Source: Sabellastarte sp. h YS-2021
Lineage: Eukaryota; Annelida; Polychaeta; Sabellida; Sabellidae
Length of the DNA: 64,000 bases
Assembly (NCBI GenBank): GCA_964017235.1
Contig: OZ024940.1
Span: 29,568,573 to 29,632,572, forward strand
Direction of reading: 5' to 3'
Each line of letters begins with the position of its first letter. Position 1 is the stretch's first letter. The translations under genes were made by a program, and so were the position numbers. Under the pieces are notes generated by a model, which ran no database searches, had not been told where the DNA came from, and saw only the letters and a list, made by a program, of their open reading frames with translations. Shown one piece after another: positions 5,635 through 62,646 of this stretch.

Positions 5635-6404
5635 CTAATATGGGTTCTGGTGACCTCTGAAGGACACCTGCCTGTGCTCTGACCTCTGCTGTCCAGGCAT
5701 GGGTATAACCACCATGTCAACCGGTGATCTCATATCACACCGGCTCTCTGGTCTTCCATACGGTTGGTCCGGCCGGTCATACTCCCTGTCTCTCCTTGTG
5801 TACTGGAGTGGGTCTCCATCTAGGGGTTCGAGCTCAAGTGTCCCGGCTTCCCAGTCCAGTGGAGACCTTGTTGGGGCATGGCTGATTTTTCTCGCCGGGC
5901 TGGCAAGCTTTCTGACAATCCAAGATGGTTCGGAGGCTGATGCTTGTGAGGTTTCAGCTGCTTCAGCCACCTGCGTCACATCTTCCATGTCAATGACCTC
6001 GCCATCCTCCGAATTGCGGTTGTTGTTGTTCTTGTTCTTCTTGCTGCCCTTGCCGCCACCTTTGCCGCCCTTCTTCTCCTTGCCCTTCTTGCCTCCTTTC
6101 TCCTTCTTGCCTCCTTTCTCCTTCTTGCCTCCTTTCTCCTTTTTGCCTCCTTTGCCTTTCTTGCCCCCCTTTTTGCCCCCTTTCTTTTTGCCACTTTTCG
6201 TTGTTGCACCCTGTTCTGCTTGTTCTTCATCCTCATCACTCGAGTCTGGATCAACCTGGTCCTCCGCCAGTCCGGTCTGGGAGTTGGCACGCGCCACCTC
6301 AGCAATAGCAGTGTTCATGGGGGGTACGTCGATGTTATTGACACTAATGTCCCCAGGTGACATCACTCCAGTGGGCTCGGGGGTAGGCGGACCAGGTTGG
6401 GCCT
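5635..6404 (-). CDS. Exon 20: terminal exon with Lys/Gly hexapeptide repeats and stop
   Basis: 770 bp, residues 746-1001, acceptor CTTTACAG, stop TAG at 5635-5637. Pro-rich start, then an acidic patch DSSDEDEEQAE (about 799-809), then a Lys/Gly-rich block at about 815-870 built on GGKKEK units, then a short Asn run, and a Tyr/Arg/Pro-rich C-terminus ending in Asn-Pro-Tyr. The Lys/Gly block reflects an 18-bp repeat in the DNA (about 6065-6190) and is low complexity. A long plus-strand frame over the same bases is only its antisense shadow. Confidence 0.88.
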
Positions 6405-9400: not shown

Positions 9401-12400
9401 TTTAACACCAGCCTACCAATACTATTCTCTACGTGTACAATAGTATTTTGATTTAAATGTAACACATGCCTGTCAGTTCAATATATTTTTATAAAATTAA
9501 TTATTCTAGATAAACAATTTCAGTAACTTCCAGCCTAGGAACACCACAATTCAATTGCTTTACTAGTTATGTAATACAGTAAACTGCTACTTAAATATAC
9601 CAATACACACCTGTACATAAATATTGGGATTATTATTTATATTATTTATTATTTATATTAATAATATTAATATAATTATTTACAAACAGAAAACAAAGCA
9701 ATGTTCCAAAGGCATTTAATTCTAATCGAGGTTTAGAGTGAAAATCAGAAATCTCAGTGTTATACAAAGACCAGAAATCAACTATTCACTTTCTTATATA
9801 TGAATAAATTTGAATATTAAATAGATTCAAAGGAATATTTCACTATGTCCTACAAAGGTGACAACTTGAAAATGAAGTGATTAGCTACCTGCATCTAAAA
9901 GGTTTGGAGTTATTAGTGGTAAGACCATTTAAACTGTCATTAAAATTTTCAAATATCTCCTTTAGAAGGTATTAAGGTGTTATAATGAAAGCAATGACAT
10001 AGCTGAAGAATTTTAGTTGCAGACTAGTGGTTAATTTGTCTCTTAATATAAACTAAGACATTATAAAGCATTTGAGACATTGTGAAAGCATGTCAAAGAC
10101 ATTGTGAAAAATATTTGAGACATTACTCAAATATTTGAGACAGATGAAAGTATGTGAGACATATTACTTAAGCATCTGGAACATTGTGAAAGTATGCGAG
10201 AGACATCATGAAAGCTTTTAAGACATATGACAATATGTGAAGCACAATGAAAAGTATGTGAGACAAAATGAAAGAATTTGAGACAAGATGAAGGCAGGTA
10301 TCTATAGGTATCTATAGGACAGTTTTAAGAATCTACTTACAGAGTAGTTATTTTCACTGGAAGATTTAGGATATTATATAAGACAATGAGACAAGACTGA
10401 GACGTTAGGACAGTCTTACAAAGGCACTGAGAGGAGTTAATTTTTAGTAGAAGGTTTGAGACATTTAGTAAGTCAGACCATTTGAAGAAGGCATCGAGTA
10501 AATTAAGGTACTAGCTACTGATGAAAGCATGACAGGTTTTGAGAGTATATAAGACAGCGAGACAAAACCGAGACAATGTTAAGACAATACTTATTTAGTC
10601 ATGGCGACAGAGGTTGAGAAAAAAAGCATCACACGACAGGGTTTTGACGAAGGTCGTTTACCTGCCAATACCGTGGCCAGATCGTGTCTCCTGACCTTGT
10701 GGGGGGTCGTAGTCGTCACTGTATCAATAACCAACATATTCAGAGTTATAAATACAGGAATACAGGGGCCGTATTCGCAAAAGGGATCAAGCACTATATC
10801 CCATATATCTTTAAGATTAACTTGTATATGCTAGGCTAACCTGAATCCTTATGGGTTACCAGTTTACATTAAGCTAATCTGTATCATGAGATTTACCTGT
10901 ATCTGTAAGGTTAACCTGTATCATGAGGTTTACCTATATATCTGTCAGGTTAACCTGTATCTTTATAGTCTACCTGTATCTGTAAGGTTTACCTGTATCA
11001 TGAAGTTTACCTGTATATCTGTCAGGTTAACCTCTATCTTTATAGTTTACCTGTATATCTGTCAGGTTAACCTGTATCTTTATAGTTTACCTGTACCTGC
11101 AGGATACAATATCTATCTGCATAGTGTAACTGTACATCTGTAAGGTTAACCTTTATATGTAAGGTGCACCTGTATCTTTGTTAGGTTAATGGGTACCTGT
11201 AAGGTTAACCCATGTCTGTAAGGTTTACATCCACTCACCGTGCGGTTGCTCCACCATTCAATGCGGCCAGTGTGGGGTCGTCTTCCTCCTCATCTGTCCA
11301 CACCTGACCCACAGCCTCCTCCTCTAGTGGAGCCAGCTTCCTGTGTACACAAACAATAATAAACAGTAAACAAATAGTTAACAACAAATAGTAAATCACA
11401 GATAGCCAAAGGCAAGTCTCATGAGGTTGAGAGGTGAAATTTAAGTGAAATCTTTCCTTTTGTCTCTGTGTTCCAATATGTATTATTTATTTATTTATTT
11501 TTCTCTGAAAAACACAATTCAAAAATTTGGGAATAGCCTTAACATTTTATGCTTACTGTTTCACTTATTACATAATGTTTTTTTTTTTTTCATTTTTACA
11601 ACACTGTCAGGTTACTTACAGGTAAACAATTTCTTTGTGGTTTTGTGTTCATACAATCTCACTACAAAAGGAAAGTCTGTGCCAGAACAAATAATAATAA
11701 AACATTTTGTGGCGAAAGCCTGAAGAATTCAGCAAACACAATGAAATTTATTACCGTTTTTATTTTTATTTATTTATTTAGTTATATTTTTTGTGATCTC
11801 TTTCCATGTTTTAAACTTTTTTTTCGGTTTTAGATGCAAATTCTGCATAATCAAACAGCAGACATTGTAATGCATATTTACAAGTTGGGGGAACAAATAT
11901 TGTGCAAAACTACGAAGCAAGGGGGTGTCAAATACAAGCAGACGATGACATCCCACACTGTGCTGTGATTGTGAATTGGTACAAAAACATTGGCAAAAAA
12001 ATAAAAAACCATACACACACAAGCTGCCATTACCTGGACTGTCTTACTTTGATTTTCTTGGATTTTGTAAGACTGTAAAAATGAGCAACATTGGCTTAAA
12101 AAAATGTCTGTTTTGAGTAAGAGTTTTGAAAAGCTTATTTGCATAATCTCCCCTCTTAGAAATAAACTAAAATTTCATGAATTTCTATTCATTACTTCCT
12201 GAGTAAAGTCAATCAGAAAGCCCAAATTCATTGAAAATACATTTAAAATTCAGGATTTCTTTATATCTGGAATCAGGGCAGGCTCAGTAACACCGGTATC
12301 TCGGTATCGAGACCAATTCACTTTGACACTGTGGTGACACTGTACAGCCGGTATTTCGAATGCCAGTATATGATATTGTGAGAAAACGTAAAGTTAGTAG

Positions 12401-15400
12401 AAGCAAACCTCAAATCTGAAGAAATTACAAACTTTTAATCCCATATTTTTATATATTTAGCCCTTTTGTAGTGATTTCTTTTCGGAAGATCTGTCAATGT
12501 TTTTTTTTAAATTTTACTTTCAGTTGGTGGGCCTACATTCGATTGGGGATGCCCAAGAATGCAATTTCTTTCGGTATGACGGAATTGGTATGGTTTCACA
12601 CTGGTGGGATACCGAAATGGAAAATCTCCTACAGACCCTGCCCTATCTGGAATGTTCTAGAACTTTTCCCATAATCTGATCACTTCCTCCTTTGGTCAGG
12701 ACGAAATTAGATGAATAATCGATGCTGGTTTGGTCAACGGTCGTCAAAATGGGTGACTTAAATCAGCGAGGGGAAAATTTGGAGGCGACGCCCATAATTA
12801 ACATATTTCACTGTTTTCAAGGTTACCTGGGTTTGCGTTTCTTGTTCTTCTTTGCGGGCCAGCTTTCTCTGATGAAGTGAGACGTGTCCTTCTTGTGCAT
12901 CCGCATGCGGTAGTAAGAGTCGGTGCTGGAAAGGTACGAACAGGATTGTTCAAGATTTGTAGCACAAATTTTAAAAACTTAATAATTCTGTTTAAACAAA
13001 GATTTTCAAGGTTTTTAAGATAAATTTCAAAGTTAAAGCACATGCAAGGCTCTGTTCTCTTACAAGATTTTTTTTTCAGTTAAAAATGGATCCCTCTTGG
13101 AAGCCGCATTGTCTAACAGCCCATCGTATAGTAAATGCAAAAATTTATTTTGTAGGTTAACTTGCATGAAACTTATTTATTTATTTGGGTTTTAACATCA
13201 CTGTCAACACATTAAGTAGGTCATACAATGACGCGGACGAAACCGGTACATACAGTTGGTCAAGGTTCTGTACTGTAAACTGCCAACCAACGGCAAGCAA
13301 CTACCAACTTGCCCACTTGAGGTAGGGCTGGGAACTGAACCCCGAGCTCAGAGGTGGGAGGTGAGAGTGTTACCACTCTGCCACCATGGCCCAGTGCATG
13401 TAACTTAAAACAAATATACTTAAATATACAGTAAATACAATATACGATATATTAAATATACCGATTGTGAAACGTAGGTCTTGGTGAATTCCCAGAATTC
13501 CTTGCAATGTCTGTGAGGGTTTGTGTGAGAATGCCAAGGCTCAAGGGAGTTTCTTAAGATCTAATTGTCAATTTTATTCACTTCATTCACTTTTATTCAC
13601 CAACAGTAAAGCAACTTTCACCATGACCTGACACTTAGACCCCATTTACACTTACCTGAACTGACATTTGGCCCCGTCTTCCATTTCGAAGCCACAGGTG
13701 TGGAAGCCGTCATCTCTGACATTACTCAGGGGTGGGGATTTGTGCCCCGCCCCTTCCTGTCCACGGAACACAAACACACCGTTCTGTGAGGGCTGGGGCG
13801 CCCCACCGTCACCCCGACCATCCTCTATAGGGGGGAGTACGCCGTGACGCTTCTTCTTGCCTAAACCAAGAGAATATACTGAGTTGGTGCAAAGTAACTA
13901 CACATAGAAGGGTCTGTTAGATTGAAAAATCGATGTTATTACAGAAATAAAAGCTATTTATAGTGTTAATATACTATGACAGCAGAAGTTTGTATATCTT
14001 AGAGGAACCAATCTAATCAAACCCGGCTCCTATAGGGCTTAATGTCTAAGTAGTAGATTCTTAGGTAAATCAAATAGAATTTACTATAATTCTGAAATTA
14101 CACAACAGCTGAACAAGCCATAAGCTGATGTCTCTAGTAGTGATATGGACGAAACTTAATTGTCTATATATTTTGAGAGATTAAGATTTTATTCATGTAG
14201 TATATTAAGTACACCACATGATGGTATCTTGCGATGCCCTGTGTGCACCAAATAAAATCCAATATAATTCAATCTTAAAATCAGCCAAACTGCAAAGAAA
14301 TTTTAAAATCAGACCATACGGAACAAGTTGCCATATTCACATATGGGGTGCCATGGTTGATCCGGGATTTTGAATAATTTAAAGCTTATGAATATTCATG
14401 AGGTAAAAGTAAAAAATGAAATTTCAGGTAGACATTACGTTAAGGATTTCCAGACAATAGGCAATATAATGGTAGGCAAGTTTTTTGGTAGGCAGGTTGA
14501 CAACACATCTGAAGTTGTTGAGTTGTCGACCTCTTGGTCCTTGATAACTATCTACCCTAATAATGAATATTCATATCTTTATTCTCATTAAGAGCCTCAT
14601 GAATATTCCAAATTGAATTCTGCACCCTTAGCCCGGCAATAAGTGAAAGGAAATTATGGCCATTTTGGTTGCAAACTGAGGCCAAATAGAGAGATGGGCT
14701 TTCTATTTATAACTGTGAACGGTATAATACATGTTACTGAAATAAACTAAAACATACACCCATTTGCCGATGACACCCTAGTGATTCGATAACAATTGGG
14801 AAATTCTTTTCAAACTAAAACTCGTTCGGTTTCAAATAGCGTTGCGTCATTTCTGGTGGCTGTAGATAAGATAATGTCATGTCATTATCAATTTTATTAT
14901 TGACTTTTATTGCATTTTCATTGGTGGCAAAGGGATTGTTACATTGAGACCAATACAAGATCACCTTTCTGGAAAGACCAATCATTTCTTGAGATAAACA
15001 TGAGGCGGCTGTTAGTTCAATCATCAATTTTTCTGCGGTTTCCTGCAATGGTCCTAAATGTTAGAAATCTCACTCGAATATATATTGCTTATCTCGATAA
15101 TTTGGCACGACTTAAAACATTTCTGCAATAAAGTGAGTGCCCCTATATTGGCAAAATAAGCAACCAAAATTTACCTAAGAATGTTTTATTTTGTATTAGA
15201 GAATCAGTCTGGATACACACTGAGTTTAGTGTTCACACTTTTCCTACAACCCCCCACAGAGCAAATATATTGAAATGGCTACAGTATGCTATCTTAAGAT
15301 GACACCATATATTAAAATGGTGCATAACAATTTGGTCTTTCCAGTTGTAAACTTCATGTGTAAAAGTTTCAATGTATTTAAAACATTAATTTTTAAAAAA

Positions 15401-18400
15401 ATCAATATGCATGAGTTTTAGTATATCTGGCCAAAACACCTTGAACAAAGAGGCTTCCGGAGATGAACCACATTTTACCCGACATTTCCATTCCGCGACA
15501 GAGAGTCCGTGTTTTGCAAATGGTCGCCCCTAGTTTTCGCCATAATCAGGCCACTTAGCTAGTGCGTTCAAGGAGTTTTGGGATAATTGACTTCTAGTCA
15601 GAAATAAAAACTTAAAAGTTTTTTAGGTTCAGTAAGTGCAATCACTTGATTCTGGTGGCATGCTTAAACTCTGGACGATCAGTGCAAAACACGGCTCCTG
15701 TTTTTTTTGGGGGGGGGATTTTTTGTTGTTCTTTTCTCGAGGGGGGGAGGGGGGGAGAGATTTGAATAAGGAGTAGGGGAGGGGGAATATTTTATAAGAA
15801 ATTTATAGCCAAGTCGCTACCAAAACACTCCACCACCACACAACCGCCACCGCATGGTCAACCGCTGTAGGAAAATGCTTGGTATGAATTTATTATCGCA
15901 TTTTTTTATATTGTTATTATTAATTTGAAAACCAAGAGATTCATGCACAAATTATGCACCACAAAATGGACAAATATTGCAGTTCAATGTAAAAAAGGGG
16001 GCGCAATCAAGGTTTTACTGTGCATATGGTGGTCACTTACATAAGGCATAATATCAACAAACAACGGCTTATGTACAAACAAAACAGATTTTCATTTATT
16101 GATTTAAAGAGTTTCAAAATATACAATTATAGCTGGTCGACAAAAATGCGAAAAAAATTTTTGTTGAAAACCTGCTTTGTTTCATTTCAGTCCTCCTGGG
16201 ATTAAAGGAAATGTTGTTTTGGATTTGACAGGCAAGCAAGTGGTGGCTTACTTTTACGAGTTGGTTTTTGTCCACGAGTTGGAGGGTGGTGAGTTTTGAG
16301 GGCGACTTTGACTCTATACTATGTATAACCAACTCACCCTGTTTTTTACATGAGTTTGTATGTTTTTGGCGCCGCCTCCCACGTGACCATCCAGAGATAA
16401 GCATTTTCCAGCAAAAAAACCACGAGATTGCATCAAACCGAGCCAAAAAAAAAAAAATACTCTTGACAACTTGTAATAAATTCAATAGTCTACCACCTTT
16501 AAATGTCAAGGATCTTATTTTGATGGCAAATCAGCCTAATTGGTGGTCAACACAGTTTATAAAAACTTGACGGGCCTGCGTGAGACATATATCAGTCTAA
16601 TGCCTCATCCTGACAACACTACTCGCACATATGAGGAGGGTTCTGTCATGGAAACAAATATACCAACAAACAGTAACAAATGGTCACTTCAGCCTAAACT
16701 AAATCAAAATAATAATAATAATAATGTCAAAAGTAAGTACGAGTTCACCATTAAACTAAAACCCCTCAGAGTATTGGCAGTATCGAGAGCCTGTGGGGAT
16801 CATAGCCAAACTTGGTAGTCCATAGCAAGAAAGCTGTTAATAGGGAACCATTACTTCTGATGATCAATCTGTGTAGTCAGTTTACAAAATAACAAACTTT
16901 AACCGGACTTTGATGAACAAAAAAGATAATGCATGAACCTTTACAAGGCCAAAACAAACTAATAGTTTCTGATAGCTTTTAACAGTCGATCTTCTTTCAA
17001 TGTTTGTGACATTTCTGATGGCGAATTACACTCCATTTTTGTCAAACTAATTTGTGGGTAACAGTTTTATGTCGACTGCCGTCTGTGATATAGATTTGTA
17101 TTTATTTGGGGTTTTACGTCGCTTTCAACACTGTACAGGTCATATCACGACGGGTAGTTTTGTGGGCAGAGGAAACCAGTACATACAGTTGGTGTCAAGG
17201 TTCTGTACTGTAAACTGCCGACCATCGGCAAGCAACTAACAACTTTCCCACATAAGGTCCTGGGTTTGAACCGCCGACCTCAGAGGTGGGAGGTGAATAA
17301 GATGATTTGATGTCCCCTGTTGAAGCAGGTACCTCTACATAATTGCCGGGCATTGGTAAGCAACAAACAGCTTTCCCAACTAGAGTCAGGCCAAGGGTTC
17401 AAACCAAATACCTCAGAAGTGGAAGACAAGTATATTACCCCCAACACCCTTTAATTCTGTACTGATTTATCATTACTCTGTGATATACTCTACTGCGACT
17501 CTTTTCAGTGTAAAAATGGCCAGAAAATCTGTGATTTTCTTTTTATAAGTTAGAGAAAATGGTTCGCCTGAGGTCATATTTACAACAAGACTGATAAATA
17601 CAGTGGAACCTCTATTATCTGACCCTCTATTATCCGAATTTTCAATTATCCGAACTCCAATCCACCGTCCCAACTCCATTTAAACCTGTTATTTTAGGCT
17701 TTCCATTATCCGACCTTTCTATTATCCGACCTAATTGTTACTCTCCCAAGAGGGGCGGATAATGGAGGTTGTTCTGTATTGTGAAACTGCTGAAAATAGA
17801 GATCTGTTCTCTTAAGCTTTCACTTCGAACATTTCACAGCTCTATTCAGTCTGGAATCAGACTCACTCGCCCTCACACAGTTACGCACACACACACACAC
17901 ACAAGCACACCCACACACTGTATGTGCCCCTACCGTACACACGTAATATACACATATTTTAGTGCCATTGCATCCAAGTAAGCGGATACAGCTTGTGGCG
18001 AGTAATTCAGAAGTGTTAGAAGGAATATTTGCTTATTTCTTTTCGATTTATATTTATTTTTAGTTTTACATCACATTCAACAGCCAGGGTCATGTTGCGA
18101 CGGGTAGTTTATGGGTGGAGGAAACCAGTGCATACTAGTTGGTCAAGATTCTGCCACTGTAAACCACCGGGCATCGGCAAGTAACTACCAACTTTCCAAC
18201 ATGAAATGCCCGGGTTGAGATTTAAACCGGTGACCTCAGAGGTTGAAGGCAAGCACTCTAACCGCTACACCTTCGAGCAGTGACCAAATTTTGTGGCATT
18301 CATGAGCTCCCACCAGATAGTTGGGGATATATATTCTGGAAGACATTTCGGGTTATTTGGATATCAAAATTTGCGAAAATTAATCAAGCCACACCAGCAA

Positions 18401-21400
18401 GGAGACATCTGCACAAATGGAAAAAAGTACGCTTACACCATTCACTGTTTCAGTATATTTATCACATTCAGTACAGAGTGAGGATTGTCCAATTCATATC
18501 CTAGTTATTACGTACACTGTAAAAGTCCTGTCAAGGTCATTTCACCTCTCTCACACAATGCCAGAACGTAATCTAGCGTCTATTTTATAGTGGTGGGCCT
18601 TAACGCCACCAACCAAAACATCTTGCAAAAAACATTGCTTTATTCCGATAATTCCCCATTAAAGTGATGTACGGCAATTGACTGCTATTTTAGTTCGGCC
18701 CCCACGACACCAGGGCTAGACTTGCTTACAAATACTTACTTAGCATAGCATTCTTTCTTAAAACACTGACTGAATGAATGAGTCTTGGCTAATAGTCATA
18801 AAAAGGTTTCAAAAACTCAGTCTCAAACTCAGCCCTACGGTATAAACTCAGACTTAGCATCCTCAAGTGAAATCCTGACTAAGTAGTATACATACTCAAA
18901 TTCAAATCAAAACATGGTAAAACAAAAATTAATGTAGCCATAATGTCAAATGTTTAAGACTCCTTTCAACCAAACTTAAATGTAATTCTCCAATTATAGG
19001 GAGCATAGATGACTCTGGCCTGAGTTTAAGTATATACCTACTTAAGACTAGGCGTCATATTTCAGTTTCAGCTTAAACTCAAATTTTAGGATGGAAACCC
19101 TAAATTATACGGATTGTAAATTTTTATAGGATTTAACCCCTATATTATAGGTATTATGGATTTTTAAAGGATTTAACCCCTAAATTATAGGGATTATAGA
19201 TTTTTATAGGATTTAACCCCTAAATTATAGGGATTATAGATTTTTAAAGGATATCAGCTTTGGATTTTACACCCTGACTGGAAATAAAGGGAAATGGTTT
19301 TGGAGAAGCCCAGTGCACTTAAGGAAGTACCTTACCTCTAGGTCTAAGTACCAATACATAATTAGGTACTTGTAACTTTAATAACATCCACCTTTTTACA
19401 ATGATTAAAAAAGATAGTATCGCTAAATTAAATACTAGCTCTCTCACAGAGAATTTAAATCCAGTGTTTTGCAAAGCAAAATTCTGTTGCCACAAAAGAA
19501 GTCATTCAACAACAGCCAATCAGTACATTTATCCAAATCTCACGCTTACACGGGCAAAATTACTCAACAGGGCTATCTGCATTAAACCGATAAGCAAAAG
19601 ATCAGCAAAGAATCAGCTCAAGTTTGAAGCTGTGTACTTTTGATAATTTTAGGTTGATTTTTGGTTGATTCTTGTCGTGAATTGTCGTAGAATGGCTTCT
19701 ACTGGCGTAGATACCAGGAGAAATACTCCTAAAAGCCACTCACAAAACACGAGCCAAAGATTTCAGGCAAATTTTAAGCACATAGGACTGGTATACTCGA
19801 GTTAATTTTGTTTTTGCTGACTTTTTGCTTGTTCCTTTTTAAGTGAATACCATCCAAGAAGGGCAAAGAATATAATATACACGTGTGTGTAACCCTTCTG
19901 TGTACAAACGTAGAAAAAATTTAAGAAAATTATGTCATAATAATATCAAAACTCATGCAAATTACATACCACACACTTGCAATACATTTTTACTTGAAGA
20001 AACCTCAGGTTCTAGAAATGATCCAATTTCGTTCAAATTATGTATTACACTTCTCTGTAATTAGCACATTATATCAGATAGCTTTACCTCCGCTGAAGAA
20101 GTGGTCGACTTCGGGGTCGTTGGGTTCACGCAGGTGCATGTGATCGTACATCACTGGGTTGCCTGACTTGGGTCGCAGGGTCCACACTGGCTTGCCTGAA
20201 ACGTACATCAGGCAGTGCTCGTAAAGTGAGAGTTTATATACAAAGGGCTTGCTTTAAATGTACATCAGGCAATGCTCATAAAGTGAGAGTTTATACAAAG
20301 GGCTTGCCTGAAACTTACATCAGGCAATGCTCATTAAATGAGAGTTTATACACAGGGCTTTCCTTGAAATGTACATCAGGCAACGCTCGTAAAGTGAGAG
20401 TTTATATAAAGGGCTTGCCTGAAACATACATCAGGCAAAGCTCGTAAAGTGAGATTTATACAAAGGGCTTGGCAATGCCTGAAATGTGCATCAGGCAACG
20501 CTTGTAAAGTGAGAGTTTATACAGAGGTTTTTGCCTGAAACATACACCAGGCAACGCTCGTAAAGTGAGAGTTTATACATAGGGCTTGCCTGAAATGTAC
20601 ATCAGGTAACGCTTGTAAAGTGAGAGTTTATACAAAGGGTTTGCCTGAAATGTACATCAGGCAACGCTCGTAAAGTGAGAGTTTATACAAAGGGTTTGCC
20701 TGCAACGTACATCAGACAACGCTCATTAAGTGAGAGTTTATACAAAGGGCTTGCCTGAAACATACATCAGGCAACGCTCGTAAAGTGAGAGTTTATACAA
20801 AGGGCTTGCCTGAAATGTACATCAGGCAACGCTCGTAAAGTGAGAGTTTATACAAAGGGTTTGCCTGAAACGTACATCAGGCAACGCTCGTAAAGTGAGA
20901 GTTTAATATAGGCCCAAGGGCAATATCACTTGGCCAAGGGCTTCATAAATACAATACTGCCCAGAAGGAAGGTTTTTATTCTGTTTATCATACCAAAAGT
21001 ATTCATGACTTCTATTTTTTTGTAGCAGTAATTATATAAAGAAATCCTTGTAAATCCCATTCATTAAATCAAATGTGAGGTCACAAACCAATTCAACACA
21101 CAAAAGTATTACGCTTAACATTTCCTAGTTAGCAGTAATTGTATGATTGTAGTAGTTATTTCCAGTCTATTAAAAAAGTGTAACGTCGTTTTTTATCTGT
21201 AACATTTGAAACATTTGAGCGCATTTTTTCGTGATATCTAAAAATGTTGGCAAAGGTCTCTCCAAATACATTAAATGTGAGGTCACAAATTCCATTGCTG
21301 TATTTCACCACACTGAAGACAAAGATGGACAAAAATCTATATCCAAACACTAAATAACTATATCCAAACACTAAATAACTATATCCAAACACTAAATAAC

Positions 21401-24400: not shown

Positions 24401-27400
24401 ACTCTATTGAGTACTTAGTCCTTCTTGTACAGACCAATCACCCTTTACTTTGGTATTGACAGACTTTTGACTTAAACAAGTACTTACACTTAAAACTTAC
24501 CATTTACTTTAATGAGTACTTATTTCTTGCTTTAACGAGTACTTAAGCATGCTTACATTTGGTACTTGTTTACTTTTCAGCAAGACCTCACTTGTACTTT
24601 AATTTTATAAGTATTCCCTTGCTCTCTACTTGTCAAATACTTATTGAATACTTGTTATATACTTACTGAAAACTCAGTACTGCTGAACTAGTTTGCCCAC
24701 AACCTACAAGTGCCATTCTTAAGGACTGCGTTTGTACCACAAAGAGTTTTGGCCTCATCATCATGTACCCACTGCTTGCCCACTTTACGTGGGGTACTTT
24801 AAGTACTTTACGTTAGGTACCTGAGTACTTACCAGCCACGCAGCCTTCACCCTGGTAGTTGAAACCACTTTTACACCTACAGGTGGACGTGCCCGCCTCA
24901 CACTCGGCATTGGCAATATGCGTGCAGTCTGCACTGTCGCATTTTTTGTTATCTCCCACCTTAAAACGTTCGCAATTCTGAAAACCAGAGGGAAAAGAGA
25001 GCAAATACAAGTAAGTGCTATACATCCCAGGTGTCGGGGGGATGGGGGGGGGCATGTGGATACAGGGGGGTAACACACCGAGATTCCACCTCACAGGTCA
25101 TGAAATATTTCCATATTTCTCATACACTGTTTATTTTGAATTTATAACTAATAATTTAATTTGCAAATTTAGTCAAACATCTTAAATCCATATTAATAAA
25201 TTTATGTTATCTGTGTTAAAATCTGTAAACGTTTTTTTTCATAAAAATTTTGAAAACTGTGACACTTTTCAGAATGGCTGTCAAAAATGGCTGCCTCTAC
25301 TTAAAAATACACAAATGAAAGTTGACCAGACTTCATTATGTCAGACAGTAACTCAGTGCTAAGTTATAATACATCACAAACTGTTATTTTAATATCACAG
25401 TCAGAAGGTATTGAGACCCTGTCGTAACTTGTTGAAACATATTGTGTAATACCGGTGTAACAGGCCAGAGTAACCCCAGACCAATTTTAACCCCCAGGAT
25501 TAAAGTAGGCTGGCCCAAATTAACACTGGTTAAAATAAGCCTAGGCAAAAATATCTCCCAGCCACAAATCTGTCCCGGCCTAATCTTTAAATATATAGTG
25601 ATGATCTATATTTTTGGGTCGTATACTATTAAGGTACTTGTACTTATAATTTTTCCAAGGTACTTGTACTCGAGTGTTGACACCAGTACTTGTACTTGAG
25701 TCTTGACACCAGTAGTTTTACTTGCCACTTGGCAAAGTACTTGTACTTGACTCCATGTACTTGACCCCACGTTTGTAATCTATACCAAGGTATAATATGA
25801 GACAGGAGCTACATCTTGGGCTCTCCCAAAGAATAACACAAGGATCATTCTGGGTTTGCCCAAATATATCTAATCTAATCTAATCTAATCTACTGCTTTG
25901 CAGGCGCAATATCTTCCCCATCAAGGGGAAGTCAGTGCGCTAAGTTAACAAAAATCATTTTTAATAAGGAGAGTTGAGGGGCGTTCAAGGTCAGTAATCC
26001 GGAGTTGTGGGTGAGACCGAGAGGGAAGGAGACTAAGTTGGGAAACTGGAATTGAAAAGGTGGGTTTTGAGGTGTTTCCTGAAAGATGCGACAGAGGGAC
26101 TGTTTCTTGTATGGAAGGGGAAAGAGTTCCAAAGAACCGGGGCGTAGTGAATAAAAGAATTAGAAAATTGTTTAACTGATTTATGAACTCCGTGGTCAGA
26201 AGTGGGCGTATGAAGGAACCTGAGTTTAGGGGTACTACGCCCTTGTATTTCTGGAAGAAGTGTGAATTAATTCTCTCAGGTAAACAGGTTGACCTTGGTT
26301 GAGGATTTTGTATGTAATTAGGCCTATTTTGAATTGTACCCTATACCTAACTGGGAGCCAATGGAGTTTTTTCAGTTGAGGGGTGATGTGAGAAAATTTT
26401 GACAATATAATATAGCAGCATTATTCTGATAAGGGGTGAATCTTGCCTGCCACACCAGTAATATAAGTGTACTTACTACCCAACCGTTCTCATAGTAGGT
26501 GCTTGCACATTTGCAGACATTGTTGTCACAGGCCGAATTGGTAAAGTGTAAAGTGCAGTTGACATCGCTGTCACAATGCAGCTCCGTCAGACCTAGAATA
26601 CAGTAAAATACACAATACAGATCCCTCAAATGGAAAATACAATACACCAAATAAACACTCGCTACTCTGTCCTCAGACCCAAAATAAAGCTAAATATACT
26701 AAACATGCATTATATTTACAGAACTACAGCACAAATACAAAGGATGTGTATTATTTAGTTTTGACTAAAATTCAAACAGTAGAACCAGTACATAGGCAAG
26801 TTGTGAGTTTCAACATATTAAGGTAGCAAACAGATATATTAGGTACACGTGAGGTACCTGTGAGATACCTCAAATTGTCCAAGTATGTAGGAGTGGAATG
26901 AAACCAGGCAAGTGTGGTACAGATGAGATACCTGTAAGATACAGTTGACATACATTTCAGGTACAGGTGAGGTACCTGTAAGGTACAGGTGACATACGAG
27001 TAAGATTCAGGCAATGGACCTGCAAGCTACAGGCAACATACCTGCAAAGTACCAGTGAGGTACCTGTGAGGTACTTACCATAAGCACAACTGCCCTTCAG
27101 GTAGTCCACGTAAAGACTGCTGGGGTTACACTTGCAGGTTTTGGTCGCATCGTCGCACACGCCATGGGTGATGAGGTTACAGTCCGTCGACTCTGTACAG
27201 CTAACAAAACAAGCAGCCATCTGTCAAGCCATTCATTTGGTTTCTCAACACGCTATGTCACAATGTGTTGGTGGCTGGGCAAACACTTATAGGGTTCGTG
27301 TGTTAACCAACATTGCTAAAGAGTTATATCCTGTAATTTCTGTAGTAAATGCCAAGGGGTTAATGCATTTTTTTCTCGAAAGTAAGACATTTTGAAGTAA

Positions 27401-30400
27401 CTACTTTAAAATATTCGATGAATATTCTTCTCTCCAGTAATTTTTGAACTGACTTGTTGAAAATTGTTGGCATGAAGATCGGGGAGGTGAGGTGGGGCAC
27501 AATTAAAAAGGGGGCATTTATTACAGAAATTACGTTTAATTCATAGGATTGAACATGAATTTGTGCCTTATTTGTCAGCACTTGTCCCTTGATCAATTTT
27601 GAGTCGGAGGCTCCACTTTCACAAGTGGCTTTTGAACGGGATTCTTCTGTCCGGCAAATCCGGGACCTTTCCTTTGTAAGTGGAAACAAACCATTTCTGG
27701 GACAGAGAAAACTGGGAAATTATCAAAATTAATTTATGCAATTACTGTATATTAACACACATATATATTGTAAGAATTATTATTGTAAATAGAGGAATAA
27801 ATTATTTTGTTTTGTTTTACCTTACCGATTTGACCTACTTCGAAGTAGGTCACTTATGACGCGTTACCGGACAGAAGAATGTTAAAAACCCTAATTTGGA
27901 CCTTGGGACACACATACATTCACCCAGACTGGCAAGAACACACAAACAGGCAGACACACACTTAGACATACTGGTAGATGGACAGACAAGAGCACAAATC
28001 AATACAGACTTTTTTTTATGACACTTACTTGTCATCCACAAACCGCTTGATGCAGTCCGTGCCGGCTTCGTTTGCGAAAGATCCGAGCTGACACTCGCAG
28101 GTGCTGTTGTCACCACATTTGGAGTAGGTCATGCCTGTAATTATGATGTAAACTGTGTGTCATGTTCTTGCCATTAAAATACTCGTAACAGGCTCTGTAA
28201 TGGTCATAGATGATTTACATGATTTCCTAGCAATTTGTCTCACTTTCTGAACCTCTGGGACCAATGATATAAGCATGATCCAATGCATTTTATTGTGACA
28301 ACGCTGTTAGAACTTGAAGCAGCTTCAAACTCAATCATTCAAAAAGATTCACAACCCATGATTTTCTACACTTCATTTAACTTTCTGAACCTCTGGGCCC
28401 ATGATTTCCTATAATTTGTTTAACTTTCTAAACCTCTGGAGTCTGAACCCATGATTTCCTATACTTTGTTTAACTGTTTGAACTGCTGGGCCCACAATTT
28501 CCTATACTTCGTTTAACTTTCTGAATCTCTGCTCCCATGAATTCCTATACTTTGTTTAACTTTCTGAACCTCTGGGCCCATGATTTTCTATACTTTGTTT
28601 AACTTTCTGAACCTCTGGGCCCATGATTTCCTATACTTTGTTTAACTTTCTGAATCTCTGGGCCCATGATTTCCTATACTTTGTTTAACTTTCTGAATGT
28701 CTGGGCCCATGATTTCCTATACTTTGTTTAATTGTCTGAACCTCTGGCCCCATGATTTTCTATACTTTGTTTAACTGTCTGAACCTCTGGGCCCATGATT
28801 TCCTATACTTTGTTTAAGTTTCTGAATGTCTGGGCTCATAATTTCCTATACTTTGTTTAACTTTCTGAACCTCTGAGCCCATATTTACAAAGATTCTCAA
28901 ACTCATGTTAAAACTCACTAATAAGCTCATTTCGATGAGTTTATTGCTTAAACTCAAACTTCTTCCAACTTAAAAATCCTTAAACTCCTCTTAAATCTTA
29001 GCCATGACATCATTTTCATTTACTAAGTTTAAGCTTAAACTCAAAGAGAACAGTTGACTGCCTTTGTTTTGGTTCCCTGTGTGAGTATATTTTAAAACAA
29101 TAGCCCCCCGAAAAAATCTTTTCCCATTTTTTTTAATGCCAACGAGCCATCCCACCCCAATACAGTACAGTTCAAACCACAACTTAAGTTGTACCCAGGC
29201 CATGGTGGGGCAGTGGTAACACACTCACTTCCCACCTCTGAGGTCAGTGGTTCAAACCCCGGACCTTATGTGGGAAAGATGGTAGTTGCTTACCGATGGT
29301 CGGAAGTTTACAGTACAGAACCTTGACACCAACTGTATGTACTGGTTTCCTCTGCCCACAAAACTACCCATTGTGATATGACCTGTACAGTGTTGAAAAC
29401 GATGAAAAAAACCCCAAATAAATAAATAAAGAAGCTACCGACCTTTCTGACACTGGGTGTCCACAGAGCAGTGGTCGTTCAGTTTGCGGATGTTGCAGGT
29501 GGCGTTCAGACTGCCCACCAGGTAGTCAAACTCGCACTGACACGTGAGGTTGTCACACTGGGAGTTGGGGATAGGTGTGGAACACTCCGTGTCTATGGTG
29601 CAGTTCTCGTAGATCTTGTCTGACAATTGGAAAGAAGACAGTTGTAAAGACAGGAGGTCTAAATGTTTGTGTAAAGTAGATCTAAATCTAAGTGTAACAT
29701 AGATATAAAAGTCAGGATAAGGACATAAATGCTAATGTAAATTAGATATAAATGTAAGTGTAAGGTAAAAAAAAATAAAATCTTTGGGTGAAGTAGACAT
29801 AAATGCTAGTAGATCTAAATGTAACTGTAAAATATATCTAAATATTAATGTAAAGTAGAAAGAAATATAAGGGTAAAAGTAGATCTGAATGTTAGTGTAA
29901 AGCAGATAAAAAGTAAATGTAAACTTGATGTAAATGCAGATATAAATGTCAGTGTAAAGTGGATCTAAATATAAGTGTAAAGTATATATAATATGAGTGT
30001 CAGTGTAAATAAGATATAATTGTAAGGGTAAAGTAGATCTAATTTTCCTGTTTATACTCACCAGGAATACAGTTTATACTCACAGGAATACAATTTATAC
30101 ACACAAGGAATACAGTTTAGATTCATTGGGAATAGTTTACACATATTGAAAATAAAGTTTTATACAGAATAAAAAGAGTTTTATATTAACTGGGAATCCA
30201 GCTTATAATCACTAGGAATACAGTGTGTACACTAGGAATACAGTTTATACTCACTAGGAATACAGAATCCGGGGTCAGTCACATCCTCGTAGTATCCCAC
30301 CTCACAGGTGCAGTTTTTGTGGGTGTCATCGCAAACCAGCCCCGCACGCGAGTCCCAGCAGTCAGCTCGCACCTCACAGGCATCTCCCAGTACACCTAGA

Positions 30401-33400
30401 TAGACAGACAGAGGGATAGACAGACAGGCAGACACAAATTCCAGCAGTCAGCACACACCTCACAGGTGTCTCCCAGTACACCCGGATAGACAGACAGTGG
30501 GATAGAGAGACAGACACACAAATTACAGCAGTCTCCATGGACCTCACAGACATCTCCCAGTACATCTGGATAGACAGACAGAGAGACAGACAGACAAACA
30601 TAGACACAAATTCCAGCAGTCAGCTTGGACCTCACAGGCATCTCCCAGTACATTTGGATAGACAGAGGGATAGACAGACAGACACACAGACACACACAAA
30701 TTCCAGCAGTCAGCACACACCTCACAGGTGTCTCCCAGTATACCCGGATAGACAGACAGTGGGATAGACAGACAGAGGATTAGACAGACAGACACACAAA
30801 TTACAGCAGTCCTCATGCACCTCACAGACATCTCCCAGTACATCTGGATAGACAGAGGGATAGAGAGACACAGAGACGGACACAAATTCTAGGAGACATG
30901 CATGTACTTATTTTTTGTCTTTCATGAATTGAGGCGTAGCATGATGACTGTCTGTCTTTTACAAAAGCTAAGCAGCAATGGGTTACGTTAGTACTGGGAT
31001 GGGTGACCACTTCAGTGCACTACTCGTGACTTGTGGCTTGCCCTAATAGACCGAGAACCCTTTCGGCTTTGTTTAACCATCAATTCTGACTGGACATTAT
31101 CTTTCATATTCTTGCCATAATGAAAAATAACATTAAACCATTTACTCTTTAGCATTTGCCAATTAATATCAATTTAAACTGCATTGAAAGATGGACTGGC
31201 AATTTCTGTTATGTCCTGTAACATTTTTGAGAGTTTTATGAATGATTTGGTATGCTGGTTCACTTTGTACACTGTAATAAAGTCATTTGAAAGATGCCTT
31301 GATATAATCTTTAAAGCAAGTGCTACCTAAGGTTCAATTATCAAATATGTTTATAACCAACAATCAATTCTTTTTAAACAAAAAAAAAATTGCTCAAACT
31401 TGAGAAATTTTTCTCATTTTAAAGACTAAGAAGGGATTGTTGTTGTACTGTGTATTTATACTCAGCACAATATCTCCATGTACTACAGGACTCAAAGTCC
31501 CAATATGACCCATCCGACTGTACTAGTACAGTCCAACTAACAAGTAACTGACATTCCCCTCTAACTGAAAGACAGAGGCTCAAGGGTGACCATTTATCAA
31601 CGTCCTTGAGGTTCTTTAACCTGCCACTGGGGATAGGACCCAATGACAGAGGACCGCCATTTTAAGTAATAATCTGAGTCCCTATAGGTCTGCCTGTACC
31701 AGGGTTCAAACCCATGTCCTGTGTTTCTAGGTGGCTGTGTTACCCACTAAGCCACAGTAGCAGATGAGGGATAAGGAATATATGTAAATGTAAGCTCAAA
31801 TACAAAGAATTTGCAGGATATGTTATTTTTAGATACTTACGCAGAGCACAGTTTGTTCCTTCATCAATGACTTTGCGGCCAGACTTGCACTCGCACTGAA
31901 AACTCGAGTTGCAGAAGGATTCGGGCATGTACTTCACGCAGGTGAACTCGGTCAATCCATTAAAACAGGTGTCTCCGATATAAATCTCTGAAAGATATGA
32001 ACACAATGAATTGTAGGCATTTCTCTATGCAGATGCAATATACAGCTTGCAGATGAGGCAAAAAGTTCCATCTATTCAATCTATTGGTGATAGTGCTGAC
32101 AAAGCCAAGAAGGGCTACCAGAACAGAGGGGCTGGTTCACAAAGTCTCCTTAAGATAAAGGTCACCTTAAATTCAAGGATTTCCTTGAATTTCTCTCTCC
32201 TTTAAAAATTCTCAGTTTCACAAGGAAGCTAGGGCCTGCCTTAAATTTAACGGATTACAAAATGTCCTTCAAGGAATCTGTTATAACTTTAATGAACATT
32301 TGCTCCCTCCTGAACTTTCAAGGAAGACCTTTGGTAAGGAGAGTTAAAGGAAGCTTTGTGAAAATGAATTTTAAGGAGGCCTTCTCAAAGGAATAGAAAT
32401 GACCTTCCTTTAGTAAAGGAGGTCTTTTCCAAAGGAGGCTTCTTCAAACTGGTCCCAGGAGCGGTATTCACGAAAAGTCAACATTTGGGCTCAAGTTGGC
32501 TATATATTTTTACACAAAAGTTAAGCTCAAGGACTTGGCTGAGACCTTTCGTGAATATTACCCCAGTGCTCAGAGACCATTGCAGAGTCTAAATTTGACA
32601 CAGAAGCAAGAGGTGATGTTCCTGCCAATTGTAGAAATTTACTTGTAAGCACTTTTGTTACATTGATAAAATTTGGCTTTATTGTAAAAATTTCATTGAA
32701 ATATGAATTTTTTCTTTTATTTTTTCCCCAGTGAATAAATTCAATTCCACAAGTTAACATATAGTACCATTTAACACACTTTAAAGGCGTAAGTTCCCTG
32801 TCACATTTTTAAGTGTGATCTCTAGCGAGGCTGGAGCTTATAGAGATCACTTTTTTTTGCGTCCAGACTTTCATGAATTGTGGCGTGGCCTTAATGACTG
32901 TCTGTATTTTACAGAATTTGAGCGGCGATGGGCTACATTAGTACTGGGATGGGTTACTGCTTCAGCACACTACTCATGTCTCTGATGGCTTTGCAGCTCG
33001 CTCTAGTAGACCCAAACCCCTTTTGGCCTTGTCCGCTTGCTGTCCCCAGAAATTGCTTGGTCAGAAGCAATACTTAGCTTGTAGAAAACAAAATTTTCAA
33101 ATTAAGTTCCAGAGTCATTGGGGAAGCATATTTAGAGGTAATTAACATTAAACTTAAACTGGGAGGAACTTGCTCATGCAAAGGATGAGAGTTTGAGTCA
33201 CTAAATTTAAGCTAATAATATGAAGGTGCGTCTGTCTGTTACTCACGTTCATCAGAGTCATCAGGGCAATCGGAGCTGTTGTCCTTTCTGAAGATGGTAC
33301 AGTAAGTAGCACTCCAGTCGGCTGTACCGCTCATCGTACACTTAAACTGGTCGTACGTCTCCCCAAGAAAAGTCTTTTGGGGGCACGAGTAGAGGTAACC

Positions 33401-34615
33401 TGTAAAATGTAGACAGGCAGTAAATACACATGGAACAATGTCTGCAAGTACACAGATAATCTGCCAATACACTGAGAATGCACAGAGATTCTGTAAATAC
33501 ACAGAGATTCTGCAAATACACAGAGTCTGTGAATACACAAAAATACACAGAGAATCTGTAAACACACAGAGAATCTATAAAATACACAGAGAATCTATAA
33601 AATACACAAAGAATCTGTGAATACACAGAGACTCTGTAAATGCACAGAGAATCTATAAAATACACAAAGAATCTATAAGATACACAGAGAATCTGTAAAA
33701 ACACAGAGAATCTATAAAATACACAGAGAATCTGTAAATACACAAAGAATCTATAAAATAAATAGGGAATCTGTAAATACACAGAGAATCTATAAAATAC
33801 ACATGTTCTGTAAATATACACAGATTCAGGTTCTGCAAATACACAGATGATCTGTAAATACACAGGAAATCTGTAAATACACAGAGAATCTGTAAATACA
33901 CAGAGAATCTATAAATACCCAGAGGTTCTGTAACTACACAGAGGTTTTGTAAACTACAGGGCGGCTTAGCTTGGTACAATTTGGATCAATTTGTAGCTTA
34001 GAGGAACTTAACTTAAAATCTCATCGTAGGAACCTACCTTCCACAAGAATAAATGCTCACTATAGGTTTGTTCTTCCTGAGTAATTATTCAGAGATTAGA
34101 CTCACCTTCGTCAGAGTTGTCCCCACAGTCGTTGCGTTTGTCCTGGAACTTTGTACAGGGAATCATGTTATTATTGTTACACGTGAACGTCCCACTACTG
34201 TCCCTCTCACAGGAGTGCTCTGAAAAATTCAAAGAAAATCAGTCGTTGTAATGGCGTTGTTTTGTCTGTATTCACACTCAGTATTATATCTCTTTACTAC
34301 AGGGGCCAGTTTTGCTAAAAGGGCTTAGCCCGGATTTTGACTTAAAGTTGAGACTTTTTGAGACAAGTTTGCATTAGTACGTCAGACAATAGTTGAAGGA
34401 CAGGGACGTTTTACAAGATGCCTACTACTGCCGGGTTTACCACCTGTATAGTGTAACTGGGCTATAAGTCTGTGGTCTTTGACTTGGTGGTTTGATAAAG
34501 TAGCAAATTCAAAGCTTCCACTCCCTCGATGACTTAACTTATTGCAAACATAGACTCAAATATGGTGTCCAAAATTTTCTCTCCACTTCAAAATTTGAAA
34601 TGGCTGAAAATAAAG

Positions 34616-34652
<37 letters not shown>

Positions 34653-37600
34653 CACCCTTCATTTTTCATATGATCAGATGAGTCAAACAAAGGATATATT
34701 TCATCAGTAACATATTTTAAGTAAATATAAAGGGTTATATGACACAGAAAACCACTGTGGTTATTTAATAAAGCAGTCTACGCTTGGTCTTAGCTAGGCC
34801 CTCTCTTGTGAAGGCCATTTAAGTCCAAGAACCAGCCAAAACAAAAGGCTCAGCTTATTTAGTTTCTTATGTGGAAAATGACTCAGTGACTCACACCTTG
34901 GACTCAATGACTCATACACTACGAACTCAGTGAGTCACACATCACTGACTCAATAACTCACATCAATGACTCAATGACTCACAAATGACCAACTCAGTCA
35001 TACATCCCTAACTCAGTGACTCACACACCACTGACTCAGTGGCTGTCACCACTGGGTCAGTGACTTACCAACGTTGACTAAATGACTCAAACACACCACT
35101 GACTCAATGACTCACACTGCTGACTCAGTGGATCGCACACCACAAATTCACTGACTCATTGACTCACGTTCATCGCTGTTGTCCCCACAATCATCGGTGC
35201 CATCCTTCCACTTGGAGCACGACACTCCGGGGGTACCATTGTCACAGGGGAAATCCCCACTGGGAGTGGTCTGACAGGCGTGCACTACAACACATGTATA
35301 AAAACTTAGTCACTTCCTTCTCGGATTAATTATTAAAGGGTTAAACATAACACAGCCCTGCATATATTGCACAGGTCACTTAATAATTGATACCATGGAC
35401 GGACACAAAGATAAACAGACCTGAAGATACACAATCTTCAACAATTTCCAAATATAATCGGTGTGAACAACAAAATTGCTCAAACTAAACAACACTATAT
35501 GCTTAAACAAAGCTTATCAAGCCATTTGTTATTTATTTGGTGCAACTGAATTATTCAAACCATTAAGATAAGGCAAACTCTGAAGACCGTTTATCTTCGT
35601 GTTCAGTTTACCTTTGTGTCCCAACCGTGTAGTGTCGACTTCTTCTTAATCACAACAATATCAAAGATAATGATTTCCCTCTAAAATCTCATCCATAATT
35701 TTGATTTCACAGAAGTTTTCTTTATTACACCAGGTTATTATGTTTATGGGTATGTTCGTTTGTTTGTGTTTGTGAATAACTCCAAAACTAAGGAATGGAT
35801 CTCACTGAATTGTGTTGTTTGTTTGTTTTTTTTTGTTTTTTTTTTTTGGGGGGGGGGGTGTGGGTAAAACCTGACCAAGGGAAGAAGTGATTACATTTTG
35901 GGAAAGATCCGAATCATATACTCTGGATACAAAAAGAAAATCCCAAATTTTTAATGATCCAGTATTTCAAAGCATTTTCAATGACTTTGGGTTTCTGGTT
36001 GACAGTACTCCAAAAGTTATGAGCAGATCTTCATGAAATTTTGTATGTGGGTAGGACTTGGCTAAAAGGAAGAAGTAATTACATTTTGAGAAAACTCTGA
36101 TTCACACAAAAAAAATACTTGATTCAATTTGGGAAACACAAAAAATACATAATTTAATTTGGGAAACACCAAAAATACATTATTTAATTGGAAAAAACAA
36201 AAAAATACATCATTTAATTTTGAAAGGACAAAAAAAACATGATTTAAATTGGGAAACACAAAAAATATATGATATATTTTGGGAAACACAAAAAATACAT
36301 CATTTAATTTGGGAAACACAAAAAAATACATAATTTAATTTTGAAAACACAAAAAATACATGATTTAATTTGGGAAACACAAAAAATACATGACTTAATT
36401 TGGGAAACAAACAATACATAATTTAATTTGGGAATCACAAAAAATACATGATTTAATTTGGGAAACATGTCCTAGTAGATTGCTGCTAACTTTGTCCCCA
36501 AAGTCTGTCATTTTTTTTCTTATGTACAAAGTCGTTCCCCAAATGGGGTCATGGGAAAGAAATCACCGGATTAGAACTGGGCCCGAATTCTACAGCAATA
36601 CTTAGATAAGGAGTCTTTAGATCTAAATCTGGGACTGTTTTCTCACTTAAGTTTTCTTGGACTTTATAGACACGAAATAAAATTTAGGAATGTTCAGCTT
36701 CATAATTTCTTACTTGAAATCTAAGAAAAACTTAAAATCTAAGTTAGAAATGGTCAAAGTACTGTTGTAGAACATGGCCTCTGGTCACGTCAGCCAATAG
36801 TGACACCCCCCCCCCCCCCCCCCCCCTTCCCTCCAAGTTTCACGTTATAATTGCAAGCAATACACAATAGATTTTGACCAGTTGGGAAGGAACTTTTAAA
36901 TAAATATGAAAAGTTCTATGTCTGTTTCAACTCCCACAAGTGACAGACAAATGCTGAGGACCTGTCCCAATATGACCCTGGCTGTTGAACTGCACGTAAA
37001 ACTCCCAACTTTTGACTTTAAAATAAATAAAGAATAAAGCCCTCATACGGAACACCTTGGTGAGTTATTATTGTTGCCAATGGCTTAATAAACAAAATAA
37101 TGCACTCGTACAAAACACTTTGATTAGCTTATCGTGTCACTAATGCTAGAAATAAAAACTATTTTCCCAGATCAATGTGAAACACTATGCAATTTTCTTG
37201 CAAACTGACAGAAAAAAAAAACAGATTTGCGTGAATAGATTTTCAGAAGAGGAAGGAACTTGAATGATTTCTATTGAAACAAAAGTCTATTCAAGAGTAT
37301 TTTTTTTGTTTTGGTATAGAAGCACTGCAAGGGTGCCCAGATAAATACTGGCACTGTTTCTGATGCGTCATTTAATTGTCATTCCCAGAACTTTATAAAT
37401 AAATAAATTTGAAAAAAATAAAATAATTCCAAGATTTTATGAAACTGCGGAATAAAACGCAAAATAAAATGTCTTTAGAATGTGTCACTTAATAGTTTTT
37501 TTTTAATCAATAAATTTAAATTCGTTCACAGTTAACAAGATACATTGAAGCATGAATATTAAATGGCATACTAGCAATATTAATGGTTTCCATATGGTAA

Positions 37601-52439: not shown

Positions 52440-53330
52440 GGTTAGGATCCGTGTGTCAAGACTTCAAACCAGAATGGTTTGCAAAAGCAGACGAGACACT
52501 ATGGGCGAAAGGTTTCTTGGAAGCAGCGAGCCTTTAGCCTGCTCTTTATTGATGATAGGGTGGGAGCAGACCTTACATCCAGTTGAAATCTGTTCCAAAG
52601 TCTGTGTCAGTCATTGGCAGAATATCAATGAAAAAGAATTTTAGACTTATGGATCCAATTACAGGCTGAAACGTCTAGGCATTTCTTAAGAGCCACATCA
52701 ACTCTGGTATTAACTGAAAGACTGTACTAATTCATATGTGCATGGAAGTAGTGCACTGTACTAATTCATATGTGCATGGAAGTAGTCCAGTAGGCCTGAA
52801 TCCGGGTATAGAGGAATGGCCTGCAGCCTAGACAGCAGCTTCTGTGTTTGACAGGGAGCCAGTGGGACTTCAATACCTAAACATGCAGGTCCTCTTGCAT
52901 GTACCTGTGATAACTTGTGCTAAATGATTTTGCAGATACTGCAATCTTCTCAGGTTCCCCTTTGACGAGCCACATTATTAAGGGTTACAGTTGTCCAGTC
53001 TGCTACTGAAAACCGCAATTGCAGAAGACTGCCACTAGATATATGGATTTAAATTTGGAAATACTGAATCCCAAACTTTGTAAATCAGTGTGGCAATGTC
53101 AAAGGCAACATCGTGCTTACAGTGAGCCTTTGAATCGATCTGAAGCCAGGCATGATATGTAAAATTCTTGTTGCCATAGACCATATGTAGTGGGTTATTT
53201 TGTATACACTAAAACTTATGAAGGTTGTTCTTGGACAAGCTACGGTAGAGGGAGTTGCAGTAGTCAAGTCTGCAGCTAGTGAGTCCATTTGCCATTCATA
53301 CAGCTATAAACTTTGTCAGATGGAATCTGA
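52440..53330. mobile_element. Dispersed repeat, element E-like
   Basis: Phrases 'cagggagccagtgggactt', 'gggttacagttgtccagtctgc' and 'ggagttgcagtagtcaagtc' suggest an old retroposon 3' region also represented at 25950-26410. Diverged; ends not determined. Confidence 0.4.
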
Positions 53331-53439
53331 TCCTCTTCGGATGCCTTAGGCTTGCTAAGCAAGATCTCCACACTGCTTGAACTTGATCGGTCACTTAAAT
53401 TTGCAAATTTAACAAGTAAATTAAAGTTTTTATAATAAC

Positions 53440-62640: not shown

Positions 62641-62646
62641 ATTTTA

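Follow-up and report, generated by a model that had tools for sequence, protein, structure and literature searches.

Tandem duplications across splice junctions in an array-rich gene of the annelid Sabellastarte

In this study, we sought to explain the tandem arrays found at many of the splice junctions of a single gene in the annelid Sabellastarte sp. h YS-2021. The gene has 20 exons and 19 introns and lies on the minus strand (5635..45536) of a 64,000-nucleotide stretch of contig OZ024940.1, hereafter the window. An initial annotation had placed minisatellites at nine of its junctions and had offered two explanations for them: a recurrent process that copies splice junctions, or tolerance of array growth only where the junction consensus survives. 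We demonstrate that junction-spanning duplications are real, that they are frequent in a sample of other genes, and that they show no preference for junctions over other intron positions; the controls lend no support to a claim of junction-directed copying or of striking enrichment. The arrays at junctions probably arose by ordinary tandem duplication, to be expected along the introns of a gene so rich in arrays, and would be tolerated there because the extra copies are spliced out; they belong to the type known in amphioxus as 'mirages'.

Results

Arrays were detected with Tandem Repeats Finder (TRF), and their relation to the junctions was assessed in two ways: by aligning each junction zone (60 intron nt and ~30 exon nt) with its array core, against 300 shuffles per junction, and by seeking a copy of the junction segment in the adjacent intron, on the intron side only (the self-copy test, with 200 shuffles in the run over 38 junctions). 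By alignment to the array core, arrays lay 0-10 bp from the junction at 8 of the 9 junctions first named. A self-copy in the adjoining intron, at a z score of at least 4, was present at 10 of the 38 junctions, and nine of these ten were unmatched by any of the 200 shuffles.

Three arrays run across a junction and carry exon sequence within their unit. The array at the exon 6 acceptor (30355..30882; this and all further features of the gene are on the minus strand), with spacings of 84-100 bp, holds 41 nt of exon 6; it touches the junction with an array-core z of 21, and its self-copies, which cover -39..+41 around the junction, score z 32.6 and 34.0. At the other end of the same exon, a 22-bp array spans the donor (30050..30265) and its unit contains the last 11 nt of exon 6 (TGTATTCCTA/GTGAGTATAAAC, the slash marking the junction; array-core z 17, self-copy z 15.3 and 16.0). 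The 55-bp array across the exon 15 acceptor (20189..20905) includes the first 7 nt of that exon and scores an array-core z of 30 and self-copy z of 26.0 and 23.8. Since the units at these three junctions hold coding nucleotides, the repeats there must derive from the junction itself. A genome search with the exon 15 array, in which simple repeats were skipped, returned that array as its only match, and the exon 6 acceptor array found itself and only four partial matches of 32-131 bases.

At five further junctions named in the initial annotation, arrays touch the exon edge or stop a few bases from it. A 19-bp array touches the exon 4 acceptor (33397..33958; array-core z 6.9), another ends 3 bp short of the exon 13 acceptor (23293..23672; z 11), a 22-bp array ends 4 bp short of the exon 9 donor (26918..27074; z 14.8) and a 19/38-bp array ends 10 bp short of the exon 18 donor (10833..11228; z 11.1). 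At the exon 2 donor (34880..35158), a degenerate 21-23-bp array built on the word GTGAGTCA matches to within 9 bp of the junction (z 5.9); the array called by TRF stops 126 bp away, and only degenerate copies reach the junction. The ninth named junction, the exon 11 donor (24816..24836), has no demonstrable array (array-core z 1.4), and its self-copy is borderline, with z of 3.3 and 4.4 and one shuffle reaching it each time. The list of nine therefore stands for the donors of exons 2, 6, 9 and 18 and the acceptors of exons 4, 6, 13 and 15, and falls for the donor of exon 11. Two cases can be placed beside it. In intron 6, a 23-bp array ends 5 bp short of the exon 7 acceptor (29625..30044; array-core z 5.5), where the self-copy test was negative (z -0.7), and at the exon 10 acceptor a short stretch (26586..26620) that resembles the exon 13 array has a copy in intron 9 (self-copy z 5.7 and 5.2).

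The copies differ in how well they preserve the splice site. It had been stated that in nearly all arrays the repeat unit contains the splice-site word itself. This holds at exon 15, where CAG is kept in 9 of 10 recognised extra copies (two further diverged copies were missed by the script), and in part at the exon 6 acceptor, where 5 extra copies were recognised and AG is kept in 2, but not at the exon 13 acceptor, where AG is kept in 0 of 14.

Some of the arrays look less like copies of a junction than like members of a wider repeat type. The exon 13 array is similar to the exon 4 array (cross-similarity z 16), the exon 18 array resembles it in reverse complement (z 11), and it has 25 further matches in the genome, at 67-75% identity, which manual grouping reduced to 13 sites; a contig end is <5 Mb away from 10 of these, several being neighbours. 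Together with the loss of AG from every recognised exon 13 copy, these data make it possible, although we would not expect it, that some arrays represent a dispersed minisatellite whose 19-21-bp unit resembles splice words by chance and which expanded beside acceptors without copying the junction. The exon 6 and exon 15 arrays speak against this, given that they hold exon sequence and have elsewhere in the genome either no matches or short partial ones only, and the likeness among AT-rich 19-20-bp arrays may be convergent. For exons 4 and 13 taken by themselves, the arrays probably had another origin than the copying of a junction, being similar to the dispersed 19-21-bp type and simply extending as far as the acceptor. 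The relatives of the exon 13 array carry TGTATT/TTACCTG-type units and occur near the ends of contigs C7, C18, C2, C4, C20 and C21. A related array at locus L128:725 has at its right edge a minus-strand sequence that looks like the end of an exon with an adjoining donor (GCCTG/GTAACA), which may be another junction case.

Whether junctions are preferred was addressed with a moved-position control that is independent of the array caller, in which a copy of the segment was sought in the next 290 bp of intron. The gene was chosen by eye, and its 34-junction tests leave out exons 1, 19 and 20. Self-copies were found at 8/34 of its junctions versus 9/34 positions 100 nt into the intron (p = 1). For comparison, exons of other genes were sampled from the top of the lists of matches, at loci without internal stops: 30 of 78 myosin matches (23 used, 7 loci with internal stops being dropped), 42 of 150 LDLa matches and 60 of 126 kinesin matches. 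From these, 61 of 250 candidate junctions were dropped for want of a splice site scoring >0; the scoring matrices were typed from recall and recovered 33 of 34 junctions of the present gene. The sample counts are not independent, as several exons come from one gene and some loci overlap. In this sample, self-copies occurred at 16/188 junctions versus 11/176 positions 100 nt in (p = 0.43), a comparison whose kinesin part had a shorter target and so favours junctions. Hence junctions were not duplicated more often than nearby intron, either in the gene or among the sampled myosin, kinesin and LDLa exons, and within this sample neither the suggested process of copying splice junctions nor an excess at junctions elsewhere was borne out.

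Additional controls place these rates in context. Few of the matches are false positives, as a reversed target gave 1/188 in the sample (16/188 real) and 0/34 in the gene (8/34 real). Copies are found throughout the introns of the gene, with 48/245 interior positions positive, versus 33/273 in the rest of the window, and at the sampled loci 50 of 354 pseudo-junctions placed further from the matched exon had a copy; these 354 positions were drawn from the full set of 59 loci (L003-L061), loci with stops among them, and some may lie in unrecognised exons. Queries shifted 45 nt into the exon matched in 11/188 cases, some of which may be neighbouring exons of repeat-domain genes. How much of the exon the sampled copies take in varies widely, 0-45 nt, where 45 is the limit of the test.

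Several results weigh in the other direction. Shuffling of arrays confined to introns, over all 19 introns, gave p of 0.004-0.05 by score cut-off and distance (0.002-0.045 in an earlier run). When one unit was allowed to extend into the exon, p rose to 0.05-0.44 over the 19 introns; in an earlier overhang-aware run on 17 introns, the last one with an arbitrary end, it was 0.015-0.30, and 2 of 8 settings fell below 0.05 (p 0.015 and 0.034). Of the 8 copies in this gene, 7 have an edge no more than 14 nt from the junction, and the sample differs, with 13 of 16 copies there including 18-45 exon nt. Junctions are also duplicated in this gene at ~3 times the sampled rate. Because the 19-23-bp units are short, they bound the overhang, which may explain the junction-close copy edges of the gene; nevertheless, the intron-only p values and these edges leave some room for anchoring in this gene. 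The assertion that the arrays exceed by far what random placement would give is accordingly weak, retaining the intron-only shuffle in its favour and facing the overhang-aware p values and a junction rate equal to that 100 nt inside.

We consider it unlikely that a junction-directed process, for instance one that is RNA-linked or acts at break-prone exon edges, preferentially copies splice junctions. The intron-only permutation, the closeness of copy edges to junctions and the exon sequence inside three arrays speak for such a process, but junctions do not outnumber the positions 100 nt inside, and this, like the variable amount of exon in the sampled copies, argues against it. A pilot on 59 junctions points the same way: array coverage within 30 nt was 7% at acceptors and 0% at donors, versus 4-16% and 3-12%, respectively, further in.

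What distinguishes the gene is its overall richness in arrays. The excess of junction self-copies over the sample (8/34 versus 16/188, p = 0.016; 8/34 versus 14/189 in another sample run, p = 0.009) is matched by one of ~4 times at positions 100 nt into the intron (9/34 versus 11/176), and is less clear for intron interiors compared with the sampled flanks (48/245 versus 50/354). From exon 2 to exon 18, merged arrays make up 17.9% of the gene, against 6.2% of the sampled genic loci. The window occupies 29.57-29.63 Mb of a 31.4-Mb contig in an assembly of 1.786 Gb and 647 contigs. A position near a contig end was considered as a cause of the high array density and set aside on thin data, as array coverage was 10.2% in ten 840-bp stretches near contig ends and 9.1% in ten mid-contig, and no trend with distance from the contig end was seen over 123 sampled loci, only 5 of which lie <5 Mb from an end; the relatives of the exon 13 array were alone in clustering near ends. 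Duplications that span junctions, with 24-45 exon nt copied, were also found in unrelated genes, at one myosin locus (L029), two kinesin loci (L100 and L120) and one LDLa locus (L051).

The extra copies would be harmful if they were used in splicing. All AG and GT dinucleotides in eight arrays were scored, and a decoy was deemed comparable if its score exceeded that of the real site or was no more than one bit lower. Of the 23 comparable decoys, 21 would introduce a stop if used and the other 2 would shift the frame. The real acceptor of exon 15 is preceded by nine comparable ones, and its score is equalled or exceeded by seven AG sites in its array. Since each comparable decoy would truncate or shift the protein, correct expression requires choice of the exon-proximal copy; at all junctions, the frame of the gene is built with the exon-proximal site. 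Preference for proximal sites and exon definition are well-established principles of splicing. The second of the two original suggestions, tolerance of array growth where the junction survives, fits these observations, given that the use of any comparable decoy would be harmful. It seems very improbable that selection keeps the arrays for extra splice sites that aid spliceosome recruitment or buffer mutations. The copies at exon 15 are near-consensus and include the seven decoys that equal or outscore the real site, as such selection might produce, yet the differing retention of splice words among arrays (CAG in 9/10 copies at exon 15, AG in 2/5 at the exon 6 acceptor and 0/14 at exon 13) weighs against the copies having a general function, as does the damage that each comparable decoy would cause.

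Ordinary duplication with tolerance, the reading we prefer, would proceed as follows. Tandem duplication and array growth, presumably by slippage or unequal exchange, would take place along all introns of the gene. A duplicated segment that by chance spans an exon-intron boundary could be retained, as the duplication would leave one intact exon edge and place the spare copy in the intron. The spliceosome would then use the exon-proximal copy of the site and remove the extra copies with the intron. Junction duplicates would thus be kept because the spliceosome picks the exon-proximal copy and discards the others, and arrays would appear anchored at junctions because tolerance keeps boundary-spanning duplications with their spares on the intron side. 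An 18-bp minisatellite also lies in frame within the coding sequence of exon 20 (6076-6165), encoding repeated Lys/Gly/Glu (KEKGGK). Being in frame, it indicates that arrays are tolerated in coding sequence too if their unit length is divisible by three.

The gene itself reads as one continuous open reading frame with GT-AG borders at every intron, and the nineteen introns originally counted proved right. Its ~1,000 codons are unbroken from the signal peptide in exon 1 (45470-45536, start codon assumed) to the stop codon in exon 20 (5635-6404), where the continuous frame ends. The protein would consist of a signal peptide, cysteine-rich exons, a transmembrane segment in exon 13 and a long, charged cytoplasmic tail. 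Judged by eye, the cysteine-rich modules look LDLa- and EB/EGF-like. In Pfam, the protein of exons 2-18 gave a sub-threshold EB match only and no LDLa match at E <= 0.1, and a protein search with its 686 residues returned a single distant match covering 7% of the query. Elsewhere in the genome there are 44 tyrosinase matches, and a tyrosinase-domain exon is similar to hemocyanin and tyrosinase chains and to two unnamed proteins, one of them at 99% identity; taken alone, these matches would hint at a mollusc. Exons of myosin did not discriminate between hosts.

Other repeats were observed in the window. An identical 23-base word occurs five times (9145, 17123, 23733, 29376 on the minus strand, and 50493; chance mean 0.01) and forms part of a dispersed element, a few hundred bases long, that looks like a tRNA-derived short interspersed element. 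At ~53300-57400 on the minus strand are broken pieces like a reverse-transcriptase element; one (55112-55378) has a weak, sub-threshold match to RVT_1, and two other pieces have no Pfam match. A 309-bp segment at 39019-39636 is duplicated head to tail at 100% identity, which is either very recent or an effect of assembly, and a 139-bp array at 62638-63341 contains repeated AAGGTCA words.

Discussion

Tandem duplications over exon-intron boundaries have a precedent in amphioxus, and the initial annotation was correct in recalling one. As described in two reports, amphioxus 'mirages' are minisatellite-like tandem duplications over boundaries at the 5' or 3' side, with units of ~10-160 bp, many of whose copies carry splice signals (PMC3087553, PMC3902484). 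The genes named there are Adh3, the globins BflGb6 and BflGb9, troponin C and PGBD5, with retinol dehydrogenase and presenilin added by the titles of references (PMC3087553). Splicing is reported to be undisturbed, and a link to intron gain has been proposed (PMC3087553, PMC3902484). The present arrays are alike in having tandem units that span boundaries at both donors and acceptors, known here from the DNA of one haplotype, and the units called by TRF, 19 to 86-100 bp, lie within the mirage range. A unit that holds both exon and intron sequence, as in a mirage, is present at the exon 6 donor (11 exon nt), the exon 6 acceptor (41) and the exon 15 acceptor (7), is marginal at the acceptors of exons 4 and 10 (6-7 exon nt), and is absent from the arrays of exons 2, 7, 9, 13 and 18, which end 3-10 bp short. 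The intact frame with its exon-proximal sites is consistent with undisturbed splicing. In contrast to the amphioxus cases, ~ten junctions of one gene are involved here, and only three of the arrays clearly include exon sequence. The genome, at 1.79 Gb, is also far larger than the ~0.5 Gb of amphioxus, as would suit a host that is not a cephalochordate.

Two further systems invite comparison. In the Rogers model, as cited in PMC3087553, introns are gained by tandem genomic duplication, for which the potato RdRp gene has been described (PMC4974935). The present gene shares with this model, as far as those sources set it out, an in-gene tandem duplication tied to splice signals; unlike in the model, existing introns are enlarged from their edges and no new intron is shown. 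An intronic tandem array in an invertebrate gene is also known from intron 3 of the abalone TSSK1-like gene, which contains a length-variable array of 27-bp units (PMC6905558). In the accessible text of that report, the array is not said to overlap a splice junction, unlike those of the gene studied here. By titles and abstract openings, we recognised no survey of such arrays outside amphioxus in the open-licence literature searched.

Of most interest among what remains is how often junctions seem to be duplicated in other genes, at ~8% of those sampled. On balance, the data tip slightly towards the view that mirages extend beyond cephalochordates and are pervasive in this large animal genome, with ~8% of splice junctions having a recognisable self-copy in the adjoining intron. 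If the sampled rate (16/188, versus 1/188 with a reversed target) holds genome-wide, it would provide a very large natural set of duplicated splice sites. Were this so, the genome would offer a natural experiment on the choice that the spliceosome makes between almost identical sites. Given that all 23 comparable decoys in this gene would wreck the protein, RNA-seq would directly measure the fidelity of exon-proximal choice. Junction duplications of this kind are also raw material for testing intron gain by boundary duplication and, if as common as the sample suggests, would constitute a standing reservoir for intron gain or for shifts of exon borders.

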